A stretch of 49,365 nucleotides of DNA. Origin: a virus. Positions within the stretch are counted from its first letter, which is position 1. The number at the start of each line of letters is the position of its first letter. The notes under the pieces are model-generated. The model ran no database searches, was not told where the DNA came from, and saw nothing but the letters and a program-made list of their open reading frames with translations. Both the position numbers and the translations under genes were made by a program. Shown piece by piece: positions 16,847 through 49,365 of this stretch. The DNA lies in the IMG/VR virus record IMGVR_UViG_3300017605_000885, positions 1 through 49,365 of that record. One strand, 5' to 3'.

Positions 16847-19140
16847 GCCGCCTTAGCTTGTGGTGGGCCCTTCTTCTGCTGGCCCTGCTGTTGCTGCTGG
16901 CCCTGCTGCTGAGTCTGCTGCTCCATGGCCATCTGTTGCTGGACCTGAGCCTGAGCCATGCGTGGGTCCATGCCCTGCTGGACCAGCTGCTGGACGCGCT
17001 GCTGCATCAGCTGCTCGGGGCCGATTGCAGTGCCAGGCGTGCCGGGAGGCAGACCGAAGGTGTTCTGTGGAGGAGGAGGTGGCGGCCCGAGCAACGTGCG
17101 GGCCATCTTGCGGAGCCCACGGGCATTGAGCACCCGCCGGAACGCCTCGTACTTGAAGGCGTAGTTGTAGGCCATCTCCGGCATCGCATTGGGAAGCTGA
17201 ACAATCTCGTCAGCCTCTTGGACCTTCTGGGCACGGGTGCGGAACTGCATGTCAGAAACCAGCTCGATATCGAACTCGTTGTCGTACATCTCGCGGGCAA
17301 CCCGGATGAGTTCTGCTCCCTGCATCTGCAGGTCTTCGTTGTAGCGATTGACGTAGAAGAGCTCGTACTCCTGGCAGAAGACCGCATTGAGCTTGCAGTT
17401 GTTCCGCATGATCTGAATGGCGAAGTCAGCGAAGGACTCCGTTGGCACCTTGATCATGGCGTTGGCCTGCTCGGCTCGACCTTGGAAGCCGCGGGCAGTC
17501 TCGCCACTCTTGCCTGGCTCCCCGGAAAGAATGTCGCTCGTCCCGAGCGCCTGTTCTCCGAATGCCATGAAGCGGTCGGCAGCCTCAATCAGCTGTGGGT
17601 TGGCTGCTCCGAAGTCGAGGGGCATGATGCCGTTTGCGAGGTCGCTCGGCATGATGTTCTTGGCCTTGTTGATCTGACCTGGGCCAATCTTGAATGGAGA
17701 AGCGAAGTCGACGTTGCTAGCAGTGATGAACGTCTTGCCGTTGCCAAGAGCACTCGCGTCCAGAAACATGGACCAGACAGTGTTGGTCGCAATGTTGAGC
17801 TGGCCGTCAATTCGACCCAATCCCACGCCGAGGTTGCCAAGAATAGGCTCCAGGCAGACGCCGTGCGAGAACATGAGGATAGGGTCTTTACGAGCGGGCT
17901 CAGGCTCCATCTGGCCATCAGCCATCCAAGACGGCGGAGGCGGCGGAGGTGGAAGCTGCTGTGCGTTGATCTGCCGTGCTTGCTGGACAATGCCGCCAAC
18001 CTCCGAGCTGTCTTGTGGGAGTGACTGCGCCTGCTGGATGAGGCCGTCGACCTGCTGCTGCTTCTGCTGCTCCATCATCTGGAGCTGCATGGTCTGCTGC
18101 TGATACTGCTGAGCCTCCTGCTGCTGCATCTGGAAGCGAGCCTTCTCCTCGAAGGACTCCTTCATATGCACGGTGAGCTTGAGCGGCACCTTCGAGCACA
18201 GGTCGAAGATGAGCTGGCAATAGAGCTCCTCCTCGATACCGGGTAGCTCCATCCAGCCTTCGTACTGGATAATCTCGTACTCGCCCTTCTTCTGACCAAA
18301 CGGGTCTTCACCCATGAACTCGGCGACGGTATCTCGAAGGGTGGTTTCCGCCTGACCGTTGGTGTACTCGGGCGCGTCGTAGGAAGTCACCTTATCGACG
18401 TTGGCCCAGCCGGCGCGCTTGCCCATCTGCTTCAGGCGGGTCTTGTAGTAGGGGAAGCGGCGGGCAATCCAAGGGATGTCTGAGAAGTCCGGCTCGACGG
18501 AGACGTGAGCATAGGGCGTCACGTAGTCATCGCAGGTCAGCACGTCGTGCACGTTCTTGCGGGTGACTGGATCGTAGTAGCTGTGGCAAGCCACATCGCC
18601 AGAGACAGCGAAGATGAGGATTGCCCGCTTCATCTGCCGCTTGAAGCCCCTCATCTTGGCTCGAATCTGCCAGTTGGAGTGCTGGCTGACGATGGGCGCA
18701 ACAACCTCCGCCTGCGGGTGAGTCGGGAGGAAGTTGAATGGCTCTGCCCAGTCACCGAAGACCTCGGTGGTCATCTTGTTGGTAAGACGAATGACGTTCT
18801 GGAGAGCGAGAGGAATGGCGGCGTTGGCGCAGTTCTCGAAGGGCTTCATCTTCGGCGGGAGGTCGCAGAAGAGCACGCGCCACTGCTCGGCTACCTTCTC
18901 GCGGTAAGCCGAGTTCTTGTCCCAAGCTGTCATGAACTCGTCGTGAATCTCCTGGACGAGCTTCTTGAGGAACTTGGTCCCTTCGTCAGAAGCTTGCAGG
19001 TCGATAACGAGGTTCTTGGAGTTCGGGTCGACAACGAGAGGAGCCTCATCGGCGGCAGTGGGAGGCTGCTCTTTCTCGGTGTCGATGTATCCCGGGTCTT
19101 CCTCGGGATCTTGGAGAACTTCGATGTTGAGTGAGTCCAT
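16843..19140 (-). CDS. Portal protein, 765 aa
   Basis: A 765-residue protein starting at 19140, whose ATG shares a base with the terminase stop (TAATG). The N-terminus is acidic; residues 60-300 contain the portal-type core with many Trp/Tyr/Phe and charged loops (DDYVTPYAHVSVEPDFSDIP). There are Gln-rich helices at about 330-400, a Pro-rich break (PPPPPPSWMADGQ), then the helical wing and barrel region, and a very Gln-rich C-terminal tail, as in P22-type portals where the C-terminus forms the long barrel. P22 portal is 725 residues, so the length fits. Twelve copies form the DNA channel and bind terminase. Confidence 0.85.
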   Translation of the reverse strand: MDSLNIEVLQDPEEDPGYIDTEKEQPPTAADEAPLVVDPNSKNLVIDLQASDEGTKFLKKLVQEIHDEFMTAWDKNSAYREKVAEQWRVLFCDLPPKMKPFENCANAAIPLALQNVIRLTNKMTTEVFGDWAEPFNFLPTHPQAEVVAPIVSQHSNWQIRAKMRGFKRQMKRAILIFAVSGDVACHSYYDPVTRKNVHDVLTCDDYVTPYAHVSVEPDFSDIPWIARRFPYYKTRLKQMGKRAGWANVDKVTSYDAPEYTNGQAETTLRDTVAEFMGEDPFGQKKGEYEIIQYEGWMELPGIEEELYCQLIFDLCSKVPLKLTVHMKESFEEKARFQMQQQEAQQYQQQTMQLQMMEQQKQQQVDGLIQQAQSLPQDSSEVGGIVQQARQINAQQLPPPPPPPSWMADGQMEPEPARKDPILMFSHGVCLEPILGNLGVGLGRIDGQLNIATNTVWSMFLDASALGNGKTFITASNVDFASPFKIGPGQINKAKNIMPSDLANGIMPLDFGAANPQLIEAADRFMAFGEQALGTSDILSGEPGKSGETARGFQGRAEQANAMIKVPTESFADFAIQIMRNNCKLNAVFCQEYELFYVNRYNEDLQMQGAELIRVAREMYDNEFDIELVSDMQFRTRAQKVQEADEIVQLPNAMPEMAYNYAFKYEAFRRVLNARGLRKMARTLLGPPPPPPQNTFGLPPGTPGTAIGPEQLMQQRVQQLVQQGMDPRMAQAQVQQQMAMEQQTQQQGQQQQQGQQKKGPPQAKAA

Positions 19141-21602
19141 TAGCCTTGCCAGTAACCGAATGAACCACGTGATGCGTCTTGTGGCTCATCGTCGTCTCGC
19201 TCGACGACTCGGCCCTTGTAATTGGGTGGATCGATGACGCGACCTTGGATGTACGCGACGGCATAAGACGTCTCATCGTACGGATGATCGAAGCCACCCT
19301 TGAGAGGCTCGGTTGGCTTGTTCGGGTCCGTCTGCATCCCAGAGAGCACCTGATAGGAGCTCTTGCAGTTCTCGAAGAAGATCAGCTTGGGCGGCCTACT
19401 GAAGTTCTCGTGGGCGGTGAGTCGCTCATGCACTCTCTGCGCGTTGTCTTCGCGCGAGCGCTTGTCGGCGTAGCACCAGTCAACCCCATTCTGAACGAAC
19501 TCTTGATATTTTGAAAGGGCGGACTCACCTCTTTCTTCCCAGATCTGGGTGTCAGCGGGCCCGTACACCATGGACCCGGCAAAGGGACTCCACAGCTTGT
19601 TGGCTTGCTCAAACGGCTTAACAACGCTCGTTACGAGCTGTTCGACCTTCTTCCGTTTGAAGACGCACTCCCAAAACTTGAAGAGGATGTCTTGGTTGGG
19701 GTCCAAGGCGTAATACCCCAAACAACCCTCACTGACATAGCCCCAGTCAATGGAGCGGAAGATGGGCCAACTCTGAGGTATCTTGAAGGGACGACAGCGA
19801 TGGATGTCGGGGTTGTACGAATGCTCAAAGAACGAACCGACAACCGAGTCCCAGCGTCCATGGAGGTATGCGTCCTGGATGTGTTTAGGACGACTTCGCA
19901 GCTCAATCTCGTACGAGCGAACGAACTCCTTATCCGGGTTATCGTAGAGCGTAGCCGGGAGAAACAGCTTGCGGACGTACTCGACAGAGCCATCTCTCAG
20001 CACCACCTTCTTGCGGATGATCTTGTTGCCTTCGGGGGCTGGGTCGACGAAGTAGCGTCTCACCCAGAGAGGGTCGTCCACTTCAACGCTCTCGCCTTTG
20101 GCATCCGAGAGCTTCGGGTTGCTCATAGAACGAATCTTCATCATCTTGCGCAGCACAGCGTCGCCAGACCGCTTGCGTGCGCAGATGGCGTGATACTGGC
20201 GCTCCAGGAACTCGATCAGTTCATCGAAGCCAATCCAGCTGTACTGCTGCCCCAGGTAGTTGGTGTGGTCGTTCCTGTCCTTGCAGTGGCCGAACTGATA
20301 CTTGAAGCCACTGGAGAACGTGAACATGCTCTTCTTCTCGTTCCAGTCGACGTCAGGGTCGATGAGCGGGAACATGCGATGAGCGCGTTCGATGGTCTCA
20401 CCCAGGCGAGTGAGCGTTCTCCTGAGGTGAAGAGCCCAGCCTTCGGAGTAGCCCCAACGGAGCGGGTTATTGACGATGGCTTGTTTGATGTCGTCGGGAA
20501 GGCCCGCTGGAATCAGCTTCTCGTTCTGCAGACAGCGCAGGTGCTCGACCCAGACCTGCTCCAGAGGGTCGGCGAGCAGCACCATCGAGTTGTGCGTCGG
20601 TATATAGGCTGGCGTGATGCAATAGGTGCCGCCTTCAACCTGGATGCACTTGACCGGCGCCGATGGGCACCGGCGGATGCGCTTTACCTCGTACCTGATC
20701 CTCTCGTACCGTTCGTGCGGCTTGCCGTGGACCCGCCGTGAGCAGGCATATTGTCGGCTCTGGATGTGGACGTAATATCCGAGTCCATGTCCGTTGCGAT
20801 AGCCTTTGCGAAGCTGAGGACCAAGACCGACTGAAGCGCAAAGAGCAAGAAAGTCAGCAAGGAAAGGTAGGTCAGCTTCTGTGACAGTTGGCCCTGTGCC
20901 GCCAGCTCCGTCCATGATGCCTTCAACGAGAGCCATTCGTTGATTAAAAGACCCAGACATGTACTCCCAAGGAATGCGACGGCCACATTCTGGGATAAGG
21001 CGGTTAATGTCGTCTCGGCGCTCTCGAATCTGGGAAACCCGAAACGAGTGCTCATCGAGTGTGTAACCGACTCGTTGGAGGATGGAGTAGAGTTCGAGGT
21101 CCCAGCCGGTAAACTTGCTCCTGTTCTTGGGCTGACCTTTGATGAGGCAGACTCCGAACACGTAAGGGTCGACGATGAGCGGTTTGGGCTCCCCAAAGTC
21201 CGCAACACCAGCCGCTGGGATGGAGATCTCGAAGACCGAATCCGCAATCTCTTTGGTGGTCTTCTTGGCGAATCGGAAGTCACCAGTAGTCACCCATTCA
21301 TGTTCGGCGTCAGCGACTATCGTTTGGTTGTAGATGTGGAGCTCGTAGCAGGGTCGGTCGAGCTGGATAGGCGTCTCCGCCACCACTCGGACTCGGTCCC
21401 CACGTATTCCAAAGACCAGATCCCCTGCTCGTATCTCTCCAAGTGTCCGGAGGCCCAGAGGCGTTGGTACGATGGTATCGAGAGCAAGTGCCTTCCCGGG
21501 CCCAGCAGCTCCAGCTCCAAAGACTTCCTCTTCTCGTCTTGCATGGTACTTGGCACCCCAAACTGAGGGTGTGTAACAGGCGCTTCTAGGGATGGCTGTC
21601 AT
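19140..21602 (-). CDS. terL: Terminase large subunit precursor with in-frame intein (820 aa; 519 aa after splicing)
   Basis: The extein is a terminase ATPase-nuclease. The P-loop GAAGPGK-S is split by the intein between Lys37 and Ser339. Walker B is FDEL at 459-462. The RNase H-like nuclease has Asp residues in SIDWGY (Asp619), GPADTQIWEERG (Asp684) and DHPYDET (Asp776). Without the 301-residue intein the protein is 519 residues, normal for the family. It cuts concatemers and pumps DNA into the head through the portal encoded next (TAATG junction). The start at 21602 overlaps the upstream gene in ATGA. Because the intein interrupts the ATP-binding loop, the unspliced protein should be inactive as a motor. 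Confidence 0.95.
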   Translation of the reverse strand: MTAIPRSACYTPSVWGAKYHARREEEVFGAGAAGPGKALALDTIVPTPLGLRTLGEIRAGDLVFGIRGDRVRVVAETPIQLDRPCYELHIYNQTIVADAEHEWVTTGDFRFAKKTTKEIADSVFEISIPAAGVADFGEPKPLIVDPYVFGVCLIKGQPKNRSKFTGWDLELYSILQRVGYTLDEHSFRVSQIRERRDDINRLIPECGRRIPWEYMSGSFNQRMALVEGIMDGAGGTGPTVTEADLPFLADFLALCASVGLGPQLRKGYRNGHGLGYYVHIQSRQYACSRRVHGKPHERYERIRYEVKRIRRCPSAPVKCIQVEGGTYCITPAYIPTHNSMVLLADPLEQVWVEHLRCLQNEKLIPAGLPDDIKQAIVNNPLRWGYSEGWALHLRRTLTRLGETIERAHRMFPLIDPDVDWNEKKSMFTFSSGFKYQFGHCKDRNDHTNYLGQQYSWIGFDELIEFLERQYHAICARKRSGDAVLRKMMKIRSMSNPKLSDAKGESVEVDDPLWVRRYFVDPAPEGNKIIRKKVVLRDGSVEYVRKLFLPATLYDNPDKEFVRSYEIELRSRPKHIQDAYLHGRWDSVVGSFFEHSYNPDIHRCRPFKIPQSWPIFRSIDWGYVSEGCLGYYALDPNQDILFKFWECVFKRKKVEQLVTSVVKPFEQANKLWSPFAGSMVYGPADTQIWEERGESALSKYQEFVQNGVDWCYADKRSREDNAQRVHERLTAHENFSRPPKLIFFENCKSSYQVLSGMQTDPNKPTEPLKGGFDHPYDETSYAVAYIQGRVIDPPNYKGRVVERDDDEPQDASRGSFGYWQG
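20589..21491 (-). other. Class 3 intein with degenerate LAGLIDADG domain, inserted in the terminase P-loop (301 aa)
   Basis: The first residue is Ala (block A: ALALDTIVPTPLGLRTLGEI) instead of Cys or Ser. Block B reads DAEHEW, with His64 and Trp66 at the B:12 position. Block F has VKCIQVEG with Cys282 at F:4. Block G ends YIPTHN with Thr299 at G:5 and the terminal Asn301, followed by Ser of the extein. Trp/Cys/Thr is the defining triad of class 3 inteins, which splice through the internal Cys. Between them lies a two-motif LAGLIDADG endonuclease: the first motif reads VFGVCLIKG (Lys118 replaces Asp) and the second VEGIMDGAG (Ala196 replaces Asp). Splicing residues look intact; homing cleavage should be lost. 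Confidence 0.92.
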
Positions 21603-24642: not shown

Positions 24643-24661
24643 CGTTTACGCCAGCTATAAT
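24633..24661 (+). promoter_or_regulatory. Rightward sigma70-type promoter for the early block
   Basis: A perfect -10 box TATAAT lies at 24656-24661, and TCGTCA (four of six consensus bases) is 17 bases upstream at 24633-24638. The predicted start point is near 24,668, about 30 bases before the first rightward gene. On the opposite strand a weaker pair (TTGCGG, 17 bases, CATTAT) points leftward toward rusA, making this the divergence point of the two blocks. Confidence 0.65.
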
Positions 24662-24696
24662 GCCATGGATAATGGCTATCCGCAAGGACAACGGTG

Positions 24697-24960
24697 ATGA
24701 ACGATCAGTTCAGCGAGTGGGACAAGTTCTATGCCGCGTACGAGAAGAGCCTCACCCCGGAGAGAGCCTTCCAGAAGTACCGACGCGGGCGGAAGAGGCG
24801 CGGCAAGTTACCGAAGAAGTCATTGACTCCACAGCAGAGGATGCAGATGGAATACGAGATGCGCGTAGAGAAGAGGCGAGTGGAAGCCCTGGAGCTCAAG
24901 GCCAGCGCGCTGGTCGCAGAAAGCTCAATAAGAGCCTCAAAGACCACCACCAAAGGCTAG
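24697..24960 (+). CDS. Basic helical protein, first early gene, 87 aa
   Basis: The start is the ATG at 24697 with AAGGA about nine bases upstream. The product is Lys/Arg-rich (YRRGRKRRGKLPKK, then MEYEMRVEKRRVEALELKAS), suitable for binding nucleic acid, with no recognised domain. Just downstream, in the -1 frame, the sequence continues as a protein-like frame with an HTH-like end (to 25196). The two may be one protein made by frameshifting, or two overlapping genes. Confidence 0.65.
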   Translation: MNDQFSEWDKFYAAYEKSLTPERAFQKYRRGRKRRGKLPKKSLTPQQRMQMEYEMRVEKRRVEALELKASALVAESSIRASKTTTKG

Positions 24961-25037
24961 CTATCTCTGGGTACGTCCCGCCGCCACCGAAGGAGTACCC
25001 AGCAAAGTACGTCGGGAGAAAGCCAATCAGACGTAGG

Positions 25038-25196
25038 ATGAGCGACGTAGACGTTATCGAGGCCCGGAAGCTAGCCCCAACAGTTAGCTGCACAGACTTG
25101 GCGAAGAAGTACGGCGTTGGATACGGCGCAATGTATTGGGCAATCAAAGGGTGGTCTTTCCGCCACCTAAACTTGGATTACCCTCCGCAATTCTAA
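25038..25196 (+). CDS. Helix-turn-helix-like small protein (52 aa from ATG; frame open further upstream)
   Basis: From the ATG at 25038 the frame reads MSDVDVIEARKLAP, then CTDLAKKYGVGYGAMYWAIK, which is the pattern of a phage HNH-adjacent or sigma-like HTH (helix, GVG turn, recognition helix). The same frame is open and protein-like back through 24930 (YVPPPPKEYPAKYVGRKPIR), where no ATG, GTG or TTG occurs. The true protein is therefore probably longer and may be reached by a -1 frameshift from the 87-residue gene that ends at 24960. A sequence-specific DNA-binding role is inferred. Confidence 0.5.
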   Translation: MSDVDVIEARKLAPTVSCTDLAKKYGVGYGAMYWAIKGWSFRHLNLDYPPQF

Positions 25197-25224
25197 GATC
25201 CGTGAACCCGTGCAGCAGGGAAGT

Positions 25225-25230
25225 TATACT
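25225..25230 (+). promoter_or_regulatory. Possible -10 element upstream of the structured non-coding region
   Basis: TATACT (five of six consensus bases) lies at 25225-25230. The hexamer 17 bases upstream (GTGAAC) matches consensus at only three positions, so the promoter is weakly supported. It would drive transcription through the structured region that follows. Confidence 0.3.
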
Positions 25231-25403
25231 CGCTGACCGACGTCTTTTTTTCGTGCAGTTTTTGCTAGTTTTCTGGTACGCGCATAGACGGCCCCCCTGA
25301 AACCCCCGAGGCCCGCCGGCAGCCACCAGAAAACACCCCCGAGGGGGTAAGCCGGCTCGCCTCCGGGAGATTAACCACTTCCAGCGGGCAAAGCCAGATG
25401 GAT

Positions 25404-26051
25404 GCGGCTAATCGCCGCTTTTATATCGGACCGTCCACGGAGGGCACCTGATGAGGGGATGCTCCTTTCGTCCACCAGCGTGCTTCCTGTCTGCTACTAG
25501 GGCCCTCCAGCAGCTCCCTCTGGCTTCACCCCAGGAGAGGAAGGAAGCTTCAGGCAGCTGCTAACGGCTTGATATATCACGAGATTGGGAAGAAGGTTCC
25601 CAAGCTCGGGATAGCCGATATCCATGACTCTAACCGGATGCTTATGTAATTCGCTCTGGGGTGATCCCAGGGACTTGCGTACCCCCAATCCCTCCTGTAC
25701 CCTAGGCACCGGCTTCGGGAAACGCCAGCCCGCAACCTGCTATCCGTAGCGTCTGGATAACGGCTCTGCTCCAGACCGAGCCGAAACCGCCTCGCATCGG
25801 AGCAGAAGTCTCCCGTTACGAGACGCTATCCGTAGCGCTATCCGCCCGCCCCCTGGGTTTGCGGCTAGCAGGCCAGTAACACGGCTCCTACGGTTAGCGG
25901 CTGGGATAAGGGATATAGCTGGCACAGTCATTGGTCATGCCACCGGCGATATCCGGAGCGTACCTAATTGACTACGGAAAGCGCTATCGGTGAGCTCGAT
26001 CGTCCCACATCGGGAATTGCGCTGAGCTAGGCTGTACTTGCCAGCGGGCAA
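25404..26051 (+). ncRNA. Candidate large structured phage RNA in the biggest non-coding gap
   Basis: The stretch 25197-26085 has no credible gene: its short open frames lack ribosome sites and normal composition. It holds an ordered series of helices: GCGGC/GCCGC (25404-25418); GGAGGGC/GCCCTCC (25439-25445 with 25502-25508) enclosing a hairpin at 25450-25472; AGCAGCT/AGCTGCT (25509-25515 with 25556-25562); CGGCT/AGCCG (25565-25569 with 25613-25617) enclosing an 11-pair hairpin at 25580-25608; CTCTGGG/CCCAGGG (25654-25672); a 21-pair nested stem at 25747-25828; TGGCA/TGCCA (25920-25942); and TTGCC/GGCAA (26038-26051). Giant phage RNAs such as GOLLD and ROOL have this size and density of structure, but I cannot match the sequence to either. 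Strand and ends are inferred. An origin of replication is the main alternative. Confidence 0.45.
25747..25828 (+). other. Nested 21-pair stem-loop within the candidate RNA
   Basis: Three coaxial helices nest: TAGCGTCT with AGACGCTA (25747-25754, 25821-25828), TAACGG with CCGTTA (25758-25763, 25813-25818) and CTGCTCC with GGAGCAG (25766-25772, 25799-25805). A competing pairing GGCTC with GAGCC (25762-25766, 25778-25782) would make a pseudoknot with the third helix. The flanks carry two copies of GCTATCCGTAGCG (25739-25751 and 25826-25838 region), each able to form a small TCCG-loop hairpin. Confidence 0.7.
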
Positions 26052-26085
26052 TTGAGCTCGCTGCGTTGCCCCCGGAGCCAGCCAC

Positions 26086-26391
26086 ATGTTTACCGCCGCC
26101 ACAACCGCCACTCCAGAGCTCTGGTCCGCTGCTCACTCTGCGCTCATGCAAGGCCGTTGGTCTGTTGCCCGTCGCCTCTGTGAAGAGCTCTCGCGCCGCT
26201 CGGACTATGTCGACCACCTGTCGTCTGTCGCCGGCTACGTTGCAGCTCAGCGCCGCACCGATTGTGAGCGCGCTCTAGACGCTGGCTTCTCGCAGCTGTT
26301 GCAGGACCGCATCGAGGGCGTCAACAGCCGCGCAGACCGCAACCGAGATCTGCTGTTCGCTGGCGCCCAACGGGTCGTTTCGGACTTCTGA
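26086..26391 (+). CDS. Unrecognised small early protein, 101 aa
   Basis: The ATG at 26086 has GGAG eight bases upstream. The 101 residues are largely helical and Ala/Arg-rich (ARRLCEELSRRSDYVDHLSS), with no domain I recognise. It is the first gene after the structured gap and begins the run of small early genes. The hairpin at 26038-26051 lies just before its ribosome site and may influence translation. Confidence 0.7.
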   Translation: MFTAATTATPELWSAAHSALMQGRWSVARRLCEELSRRSDYVDHLSSVAGYVAAQRRTDCERALDAGFSQLLQDRIEGVNSRADRNRDLLFAGAQRVVSDF

Positions 26392-26699: not shown

Positions 26700-26918
26700 A
26701 TGTTCGCACGCATCATCATCTCACTCGCCCTCGTCTCGTCTGCCGCGTCCGCCGAGACGCTGCACCACGGCAAGGTCTACAAGACCACGGCCGATCGCAT
26801 CGTGGCCGAACGTCAGCTCGTCTGCACCTATGCCAAGGGCTCGACTCGTGTCGAGACCGATTCCAAGGGGCGCACCGTGGTGATCATGGGCAAGGTTTGC
26901 ACGGAGGTCAGCCGCTAA
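26700..26918 (+). CDS. Small exported protein with signal peptide, 72 aa
   Basis: Residues 1-18 form a clean Sec signal peptide: MFARIIISLALVSSAASA, with an A-x-A cleavage site before ETLHHGK. The mature 54 residues contain two Cys (QLVCTYAKG and GKVCTEV) that may form a disulphide in the periplasm or outside the cell, and many beta-prone residues. The start follows ATAGGAGTCACCC. An exported small early protein suggests superinfection exclusion or surface modification, but this is only inference from location and export. Confidence 0.75.
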   Translation: MFARIIISLALVSSAASAETLHHGKVYKTTADRIVAERQLVCTYAKGSTRVETDSKGRTVVIMGKVCTEVSR

Positions 26919-26989: not shown

Positions 26990-27640
26990 ATGACCATCGA
27001 TCGCCACATTGTTCAGGACGCTTGCCATTATGCCTTGCTCGCTGCTGGCGGGTCTATCAACGGTTTTGAAGCTTGCGTTAGCGGCGTCAGCCGTAGCGTC
27101 GCAATGCGCCGTGCACTCAGCATGGCTCGCAAAGCGTTCGGCACCAGCGAGCTTTCCAGTATCAGCAATCTGATCGCGGACGCTGGCAAGCTTTGGGCCC
27201 GTATCTGCGAGCTTGCTCGGCGCAACGATATCGATGCCTACACTGGGCAAGCGTTGCAGGGCTACGATAGCCCAACGGACGACGCGATCGCCTCCTATGC
27301 TCGCGAGTATCACGAGCATGGCTCGCCCTCTATGGCACACACCAGCATGAGCTTTGCCGTCATGCCTACCAGGGAAGACTTCGATCGGGCGTTCGACGCC
27401 GTCTGCGCCGATACCGGCAAGTTTGAATTCGGTAACGATCCGTTCGTTGGATTCGACGCGCTGAACGCCAGCGAGCTTTGGCGTCAGCTGGAAACGCAGC
27501 TGGCCACGTGGAATGAGGGCGAGCATGCAAGCGATTGCCCCGGGGCTGGTGATTGCGACGGCTCGGACGATTGCCCATCGGAGCAGGCTGGCCGCTGGTG
27601 CTCGGATGTGCTCGGAGTGCTAGGTTTCGAATGGATCTGA
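26990..27640 (+). CDS. Unrecognised early protein, 216 aa
   Basis: The start is the ATG at 26990, preceded by CCGGAGTTACCCCA (the region's start motif); an in-frame upstream extension would begin inside the previous gene. The product is helical in the first 110 residues (SMARKAFGTSELSSISNLIA), with a Cys/Asp/Gly-rich segment near residues 180-200 (DCPGAGDCDGSDDC) that could bind metal. No known domain is recognised. It is one of several medium-size early genes with the same upstream motif and downstream hairpin. Confidence 0.7.
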   Translation: MTIDRHIVQDACHYALLAAGGSINGFEACVSGVSRSVAMRRALSMARKAFGTSELSSISNLIADAGKLWARICELARRNDIDAYTGQALQGYDSPTDDAIASYAREYHEHGSPSMAHTSMSFAVMPTREDFDRAFDAVCADTGKFEFGNDPFVGFDALNASELWRQLETQLATWNEGEHASDCPGAGDCDGSDDCPSEQAGRWCSDVLGVLGFEWI

Positions 27641-27659
27641 GCCGCTAGCGTCCGGGCCA

Positions 27660-27686
27660 GCTAGCGCCGTAGTGTACGGCGCTAGC
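27660..27686 (+). repeat. Perfect 12-bp intergenic hairpin
   Basis: GCTAGCGCCGTA (27660-27671) and TACGGCGCTAGC (27675-27686) are perfect complements separated by GTG. The element starts 19 bases after the preceding stop and ends 31 bases before the next start. No T-run follows, so it is more likely an mRNA-end, processing or protein-binding element than a simple terminator. Confidence 0.85.
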
Positions 27687-27717
27687 GAGCCTGAACACCA
27701 GCAACCAGAGGTTACCC

Positions 27718-28260
27718 ATGGATCAGAACGACATTGCAAACCACGCCCGTGCACAAGCCAATGCCCGTCGAAAGGACTACGGTCCGTTGGGCAAGGCCTG
27801 GATCGATATCGGCTCGGACGTTGATTGGCAAGGCCACGGCGGACGCTGGGCACGCCACATCGAGGGAACGCGCTACCACGTCATCCGCTTCGAGAATTGC
27901 GAGGATTGGGGCGACGGCGCAACCGGCTATCATTGCGATCTTCAGGAGGTGACGATCGATAACCCACAACTAGAGCAAGCTATGCGGTCCACGTGCGGCA
28001 ATGAGCTTCTGTCCGAGACGCCGCCGGAAGCTCACAACTGGGTTAAGGTCGAGGCGCTTTCCAGCTACGGTGCTTATGCGCCGCTATGGCAAGAGGCGAG
28101 CGGCAACAGTTGGGCGCTCCTACGCGCCGCTAAACGGGAGTCGAGGTTACTCGCCACCGATAGCGCCGAGTATGAAGACCGGATGGATCGTCCCGTCAAT
28201 GCGATCGGCACGTCCGCCCGGAACTACGGGTTAGGTCGCATCCTGTCTAGCGATAGCTAA
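27718..28260 (+). CDS. Unrecognised early protein, 180 aa
   Basis: ATG at 27718, preceded by ACCAGAGGTTACCC. The protein begins MDQNDIANHARAQANARRKD and has a Trp- and Gly-rich beta region around residues 25-85 (HVIRFENCEDWGDGATGYH). The C-terminal third is helical and charged. It contains no motif that I can assign. The shared translational signal suggests regulation together with the other small early genes. Confidence 0.7.
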   Translation: MDQNDIANHARAQANARRKDYGPLGKAWIDIGSDVDWQGHGGRWARHIEGTRYHVIRFENCEDWGDGATGYHCDLQEVTIDNPQLEQAMRSTCGNELLSETPPEAHNWVKVEALSSYGAYAPLWQEASGNSWALLRAAKRESRLLATDSAEYEDRMDRPVNAIGTSARNYGLGRILSSDS

Positions 28261-49047: not shown

Positions 49048-49365
49048 TCACGGAGAGGGTTGCTCTTCCTCTTGGGATTCATCACCAAAGAGGAGATTGT
49101 AAAGGCTGACGGCATCGTTGCCGTATCTCGCGCCGACGCTTCCCCTGCTAATGTCGAAGAATCGCCGTCCTGGATCAGCCACGCCAGCGCGCCACAGATG
49201 CTCCATGATGTCCTGTGGTCCAGAATCGAGCGGATTGCGACCAGCGCCAGACAGGATGCCCGCTACCCTGTCGAGACGAGGGCCAGCGGTATCCGCAACG
49301 CGACTAACCAGACCTTCTCCTTTGGTTCCGAGAAAGTGACGGTTCTTGAGGTCTAGCCAACCAGC
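49048..49365 (-). CDS. C-terminal end of the giant ejection protein (continues from base 1; last 141 bases duplicated)
   Basis: In the circular genome this carries the last 58 codons plus a TGA at 49048-49050 of the protein that starts at 3573. Bases 49225-49365 repeat 1-141 in the same frame. The C-terminus reads an alpha-helical segment (GPQDIMEHLWRAGVADPGRR), then SVGARYGNDAVSLYNLL, and an acidic tail. Confidence 0.8.
   Translation of the reverse strand, partial: AGWLDLKNRHFLGTKGEGLVSRVADTAGPRLDRVAGILSGAGRNPLDSGPQDIMEHLWRAGVADPGRRFFDISRGSVGARYGNDAVSLYNLLFGDESQEEEQPSP
49225..49365. repeat. 141-bp terminal direct repeat, right copy (circularity overlap)
   Basis: Identical to bases 1-141. 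Removing one copy yields a 49,224-bp circle in which the giant minus-strand gene is intact. Confidence 0.95.

Follow-up and report, generated by a model that had tools for sequence, protein, structure and literature searches.

Few RNA classes as large and as highly folded as the one proposed here are known in phages or bacteria, and most of these are without a known function. HEARO/omega RNAs and group I introns are examples of large structured RNAs that occur in phages or mobile DNA. The closest comparison is with GOLLD and ROOL, for which recent work has demonstrated assembly into RNA cages (PMC12286853); the GOLLD cage is a homo-oligomer. The element analysed here resembles GOLLD in being phage-borne, about 800 nt long, densely folded, partly variable and of unknown function, and it resembles ROOL in being a large folded phage-borne RNA to which no function has been assigned (PMC12286853). 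The window, which is the whole stretch of DNA that was analysed, is the 49,365-base virus record IMGVR_UViG_3300017605_000885.

A search of the window against Rfam 15 at the gathering score returned no match. Laxer searches, with the gap that holds the element at E values up to 10 and with seven of its eight relatives at E values up to 5 (L006 was left out), gave nothing beyond chance; the matches were chance-level ones to unrelated eukaryotic, archaeal or viral families. In particular, no Rfam covariance model for GOLLD, ROOL, group I or II introns or HEARO was matched. In addition to this, the element differs from HEARO/omega RNAs and group I introns in that it does not lie inside a gene, and no HEARO/omega-type nuclease gene was recognised beside it. 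It differs from ROOL in lacking a tRNA neighbourhood, since ARAGORN found no tRNA gene in the window genome. For the same reason, the frequent proximity or linkage of GOLLD to phage tRNA genes is not matched, although this is a common feature rather than an absolute criterion. The conserved blocks of the element lie in its 5' part and middle, whereas GOLLD has a conserved 3' region. As the Rfam test was negative and tRNA genes are absent, it was concluded that the element represents an undescribed family of a known kind of large phage RNA rather than a member of GOLLD or ROOL. A preliminary description of this DNA had likened the gap to GOLLD and ROOL while finding no match to a known family. 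The latter point holds even at lax thresholds; of the comparison, the likeness in size and habit remains, but no homology was found.

The window has identical ends of 141 bases each (1-141 and 49225-49365), and therefore the genome is very probably complete, or else it was circularly assembled. The left half carries the terminase, portal, head and tail genes, which are directed leftward. The right half encodes, rightward, an Erf-like annealing protein, an exonuclease-like protein, a Dam-type methylase and a helicase. Near the boundary of the two halves, 3' of one rightward gene (24660-25196), lies an 889-base gap at 25197-26085, where the preliminary description had placed it, between the stop of the open reading frame 24660-25196 and the start of 26086-26391. 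The features of this region are as follows.

24660-25196, + strand: upstream neighbour gene with a conserved C-terminal HTH-like part; this C-terminal part is found beside the gap in all eight relatives.
25262-25290, + strand: weak site resembling a promoter (TTGCTA and TAGACG, 17 nt apart), shortly before the first stem.
25292-25950, + strand: proposed structured RNA, with blocks conserved across nine phages; its size is taken by analogy with two distant relatives, L065 and L067, in which a terminator-like hairpin follows.
25303-25347, + strand: putative stem P1, CCCCC (25303-25307) with GGGGG (25343-25347); three both-side changes, and swapped arms pair worse.
25404-25418, + strand: putative hairpin P3, GCGGC-UAAUC-GCCGC; the stem letters vary and the pairing is kept.
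25419-25430, + strand: linker UUUUAUAUCGGA, conserved in the six close relatives.
25431-25440, + strand: putative hairpin P4, CCG-UCCA-CGG; the stem is replaced and the pairing kept in relatives.
25441-25476, + strand: conserved AGGGCACC, hairpin P5 and conserved UUUCGUCCACC, within a 73-nt core.
25477-25618, + strand: variable hairpin region with most of the helices of the preliminary description; the sequence is not conserved.
25621-25704, + strand: block B, UNACC...AAUUCGCNCUG...CUGUACCC, conserved in sequence and matched by the model R2.
25739-25837, + strand: long nested stem bounded by two exact GCTATCCGTAGCG repeats, the best-folding part of the gap; its conservation as a stem was not shown.
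26086-26391, + strand: first downstream open reading frame, not conserved among relatives.

Several other observations were made on this genome. Upstream of the RNA, the overlapping frames 24694-24960 and 24660-25196 (+ strand) are both conserved, and the second has no start codon just before its conserved part, so that either a programmed frameshift or a fusion could be involved. The C-terminal part of the 24660-25196 region weakly resembles the HTH end of HNH endonucleases. The large terminase subunit (19140-21602, - strand) contains an apparent intein (GKA|LALDT.VPTP ... IPTHN|S) in all ten aligned relatives, with alanine at the position where cysteine is usual, and several low-identity terminase matches mainly cover this part. 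A 72-aa protein encoded at 26700-26918 (+ strand) is possibly exported and belongs to no known family; it has 76% identity in L002 and 40-56% in L007 and L008. A short intergenic stretch at 27640-27718 holds strong GC-rich hairpins; of all 200-base pieces tested, 27601-27800 had the lowest folding energy when compared with its shuffles.

In the annotated phage collection, the window has no close DNA relative and its portal protein has no relative, and only remote relatives of the terminase are present. Contigs reached through the terminase have the same gene order. Besides the window, eight distinct uncultivated phages reach the gap: L002, L004, L006, L007 and L008, with terminase identities to the window of 75-85%, and L062, L065 and L067, with 51-56% (L002 and L003 have the same gap and were counted once). 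In all eight, the gap is located directly downstream of the same small HTH-type gene. The sample thus comprises only nine distinct sequences, three of which are cut by contig ends.

The window and its five close relatives have in common a 73-nt core, which consists of a UAAUC-loop hairpin, the linker UUUAUAUCGGA, a small UCCA-loop hairpin, AGGGCACC and UUUCGUCCACC, in this order. A model of this core (R1, 73 nt) recovers the six phages from which it was made and no seventh. The link to the distant phages comes from block B, which surrounds AAUUCGC and is found in the window and the close relatives except L006, where the contig ends before it. R2, a sequence-only model of block B for which four close relatives were used, picks out L065 (E 0.00017), L067 (0.0028) and L062 (0.035). 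These matches are at the orthologous place, and there was no other match in 489 kb. In L067 only, block B appears to be partly duplicated at 696-790 (ATTTCGCACTGGTGGTGG and AAATTTCGCTCTGGTGGTACCC). Between the short conserved blocks lie hairpins that vary in sequence from phage to phage yet keep their pairing, and the element cannot be aligned across phages over most of its middle and 3' part. Homology of the element in the nine phages is well supported by these sequence comparisons.

Outside this group, the element was not found in sequenced bacteria using the terminase alignment and the core pattern, bar one chance match in Microbacterium, nor was it found by DNA in annotated phages. The gene between RusA and the gap gave no homologue as an IMG/VR query. 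Apart from chance matches, nothing but previously known contigs came from searches with the core pattern, the block B pattern, RusA and the 127-aa protein. Four new contigs from one of these searches were not inspected singly; none matched the other queries.

The preliminary description had proposed a search for covarying base pairs in related phages, and such pairs were obtained in both the close and the distant set. For P3 and P4 in the six close phages, 95.7% of cells pair, compared to 82.6% in shuffled controls, of which 3 in 500 reached the observed value; sliding the partner leaves no more than 54% paired. The P3 loop is UAAUC or UGAUC in the six phages, and the stem of L002 has two mismatches. 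The CCG/CGG of P4 becomes GCG/CGC in four phages, CGGCCC/GGGCCG in L065 and GCGCCC/GGGCGC in L067, and the preceding linker has the counterparts UUAUAUUCAGGA in L065 and UUUUAGUUCGGA in L067. When six helices of L065 and L067 were compared, 15 pairs had changed, of which 14 had changed on both sides and still paired, and none had changed on one side only. This count includes the terminator-like stem (four changes), and the helices were picked by inspection but placed by conserved flanks in a small sample. The computed value of 1e-5 assumes independent pairs and is only a guide. When the 5' arm of one phage was combined with the 3' arm of another, pairs were lost in every helix, and arms anchored by conserved flanks paired better within than between phages. 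That the helices have been kept by compensatory change is, by this comparison, well supported.

Not every part of the model is equally firm. P1 is long and clear in L067 (CCCAATCAT/ATGATTGGG) and in L065; in the window, a CCCCC at 25336 offers a competing local alternative. P5 (25450-25459 with 25463-25472) has 10 pairs in the window and is weaker in relatives. Beyond P3, RNAalifold paired the core in a way that does not agree with P4 as drawn. On block B it found no pairs, and block B is therefore treated as conserved in sequence and not as proven helices. A hammerhead-like reading of CUGAUGAG at 25448, made by eye, was dropped, with Rfam being empty and the surrounding words varying in relatives.

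The helices listed in the preliminary description are real base complementarities: GGAGGGC (25439-25445) is complementary to GCCCTCC (25502-25508), AGCAGCT (25509-25515) to AGCTGCT (25556-25562) and CGGCT (25565-25569) to AGCCG (25613-25617), the last enclosing a TTGGGAA/TTCCCAA hairpin; a nested stem can also form at 25747-25828. For some of them, however, conservation could not be demonstrated. The first overlaps bases of the better supported hairpin at 25431-25440, and a similar pairing was clear, by eye, only in L008 among the relatives; the nested stem has no such support either. Within the variable region, L008 has a long hairpin of 12 pairs (2 of 200 shuffles).

Compared with 20 shuffles, the gap as a whole folds better (z -4.27), and for the opposite strand z is -4.00. 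Of the 200-base pieces compared with the genome, only 25697-25896 stands out (1 of 240 other windows was lower), and the rest are moderate or ordinary. Folding energy alone is thus weak evidence for an RNA in the gap, and its use as the main proof was abandoned. Because the strands score alike and the gap is mostly ordinary by energy, the case for more than chance rests on the homologues.

That both strands fold about equally well is also what would be seen if the hairpins acted as DNA, in a replication origin or a packaging region. An origin of replication had been the main alternative in the preliminary description. The location near the junction of two oppositely transcribed arms and the direct GCTATCCGTAGCG repeats at 25739 and 25825 are in line with such a DNA element. 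However, no DnaA box is present in the gap of the window or of the relatives (a site for a phage-specific initiator is not excluded), and there is no sharp turn in GC skew. Repeat words of a similar kind turn up in other parts of the genome, and the relatives do not retain them consistently; a reading of the word TATCCGTAGCG as an iteron or operator array was rejected on the same grounds. In L065 and L067, moreover, a promoter and a terminator-like hairpin lie in one orientation. A DNA element is therefore regarded as improbable. Nor does the gap appear to be coding. Over the conserved blocks the relatives match in all six frames, as judged by inspection, with none preferred, so that a coding frame was dropped and the conserved protein-coding frame that would have refuted the RNA proposal did not appear. 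Taken together, it is very likely, on comparative evidence, that the gap contains a conserved structured RNA.

The signals for transcription are clearest in two distant members, L065 and L067, in which both ends are seen; L062 is not among these. In both, 7-8 bases separate the end of a good promoter (TTGTAC-17-TATAAT and TTGTTA-17-TATAGT) from the stretch with which P1 opens. Upstream of the next gene, with its start at a distance of 162 and 179 bases, is a 9-pair terminator-like hairpin that is similar in place and different in sequence; a promoter-like TTGC..-16-TATCAT (background 22 and 15 of 300) follows it. The background for the first promoter is 0 of 300 in L065 and 2 of 300 in L067; the values for L006 and L008 are 4 and 5 of 300, the L008 site being placed differently. 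From the positions of promoter and terminator-like hairpin, RNAs of about 780 and 850 nt would be made in L065 and L067, their transcription being inferred. The arrangement of promoter, terminator-like hairpin and next promoter-like site looks like a stand-alone transcript.

The window itself speaks less clearly for a stand-alone RNA: its promoter-like site is weak (35 of 300 random windows score as high), P1 has the competing pairing, and the scan that was applied to L065 and L067 found no terminator at the 3' end. The 5' end would be near the first stem; the 3' end is uncertain and is put, by analogy, at roughly 25950-26030. Since no terminator can be seen in the window itself, the strongest rival there is that the element serves the rightward operon as a leader acting in cis, with hairpins near the transcript start that modify or attenuate RNA polymerase. 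HK022 put RNA is a short cis element of this type, and antitermination elements are far shorter than 400 nt. The put RNA provides a precedent for a structured RNA element that heads an early phage transcript (PMC9378689). Similarly, the element heads the rightward gene block, P3 followed by UUUU resembles a terminator, and nothing in the window was found to end transcription before the next gene. On the other hand, the element is much longer than put RNA, with several separate conserved blocks that span 400 nt or more, and in L065 and L067 the terminator-like hairpin and a further promoter-like site stand between it and the next gene, which makes it an apparently distinct unit. A leader is considered unlikely but not negligible, and a stand-alone transcription unit, rather than a leader of the next gene, is reasonably likely.

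A more specific version of a stand-alone RNA is a trans-acting antisense RNA, whose C-rich loops would pair with ribosome-binding sites, as those of staphylococcal RNAIII do. C-runs outnumber G-runs and are less paired in predicted folds, CCUCC-like words number 40 against 15 GGAGG-like ones over the nine sequences, and a C-rich loop UCCUCCCCCCC is located between the P4 arms in L065 and L067. This bias is modest and lacks a background comparison, no target was sought and the host is unknown, which leaves the antisense role very doubtful.

A stand-alone large folded non-coding RNA is, as a whole, the probable explanation. The undescribed large structured RNA put forward in the preliminary description is backed by the covarying homologues, the link through R2, the promoter and terminator-like hairpin of L065 and L067 and the lack of an Rfam match. 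The gap would encode a highly folded non-coding RNA of roughly 650-850 nt, which may start at a promoter of its own where the leftward structural genes meet the rightward gene block, be transcribed rightward and end at a hairpin ahead of the next gene. The conserved single-stranded blocks UUUAUAUCGGA, AGGGCACC, AAUUUCGCNCUG and CUGUACCC could be sites of tertiary contact or partner binding, and conserved unpaired blocks between variable hairpins would fit a fixed three-dimensional core with variable outer arms. It is from the dense fold and this arrangement of blocks that an action in trans during infection, as a folded RNA or an RNA-protein scaffold, is inferred, similar roles having been suggested for further large RNAs of phages; such a scaffold role is no more than a tentative suggestion. 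Transcription, ends, timing and function are all inferred, as there are no transcript data.

It is conceivable, although this remains speculative, that, among large ornate RNAs, the element is a new class with no relation to GOLLD, ROOL or OLE, which marks a lineage of uncultivated phages and serves as a trans-acting scaffold or machine in infection. With nine sequences and named helices, its structure is directly testable. If it is an unrelated family of similar size without tRNA islands, such RNAs would seem to have arisen more than once, and the role of the RNA would be separable from that of the tRNAs that are usually adjacent.
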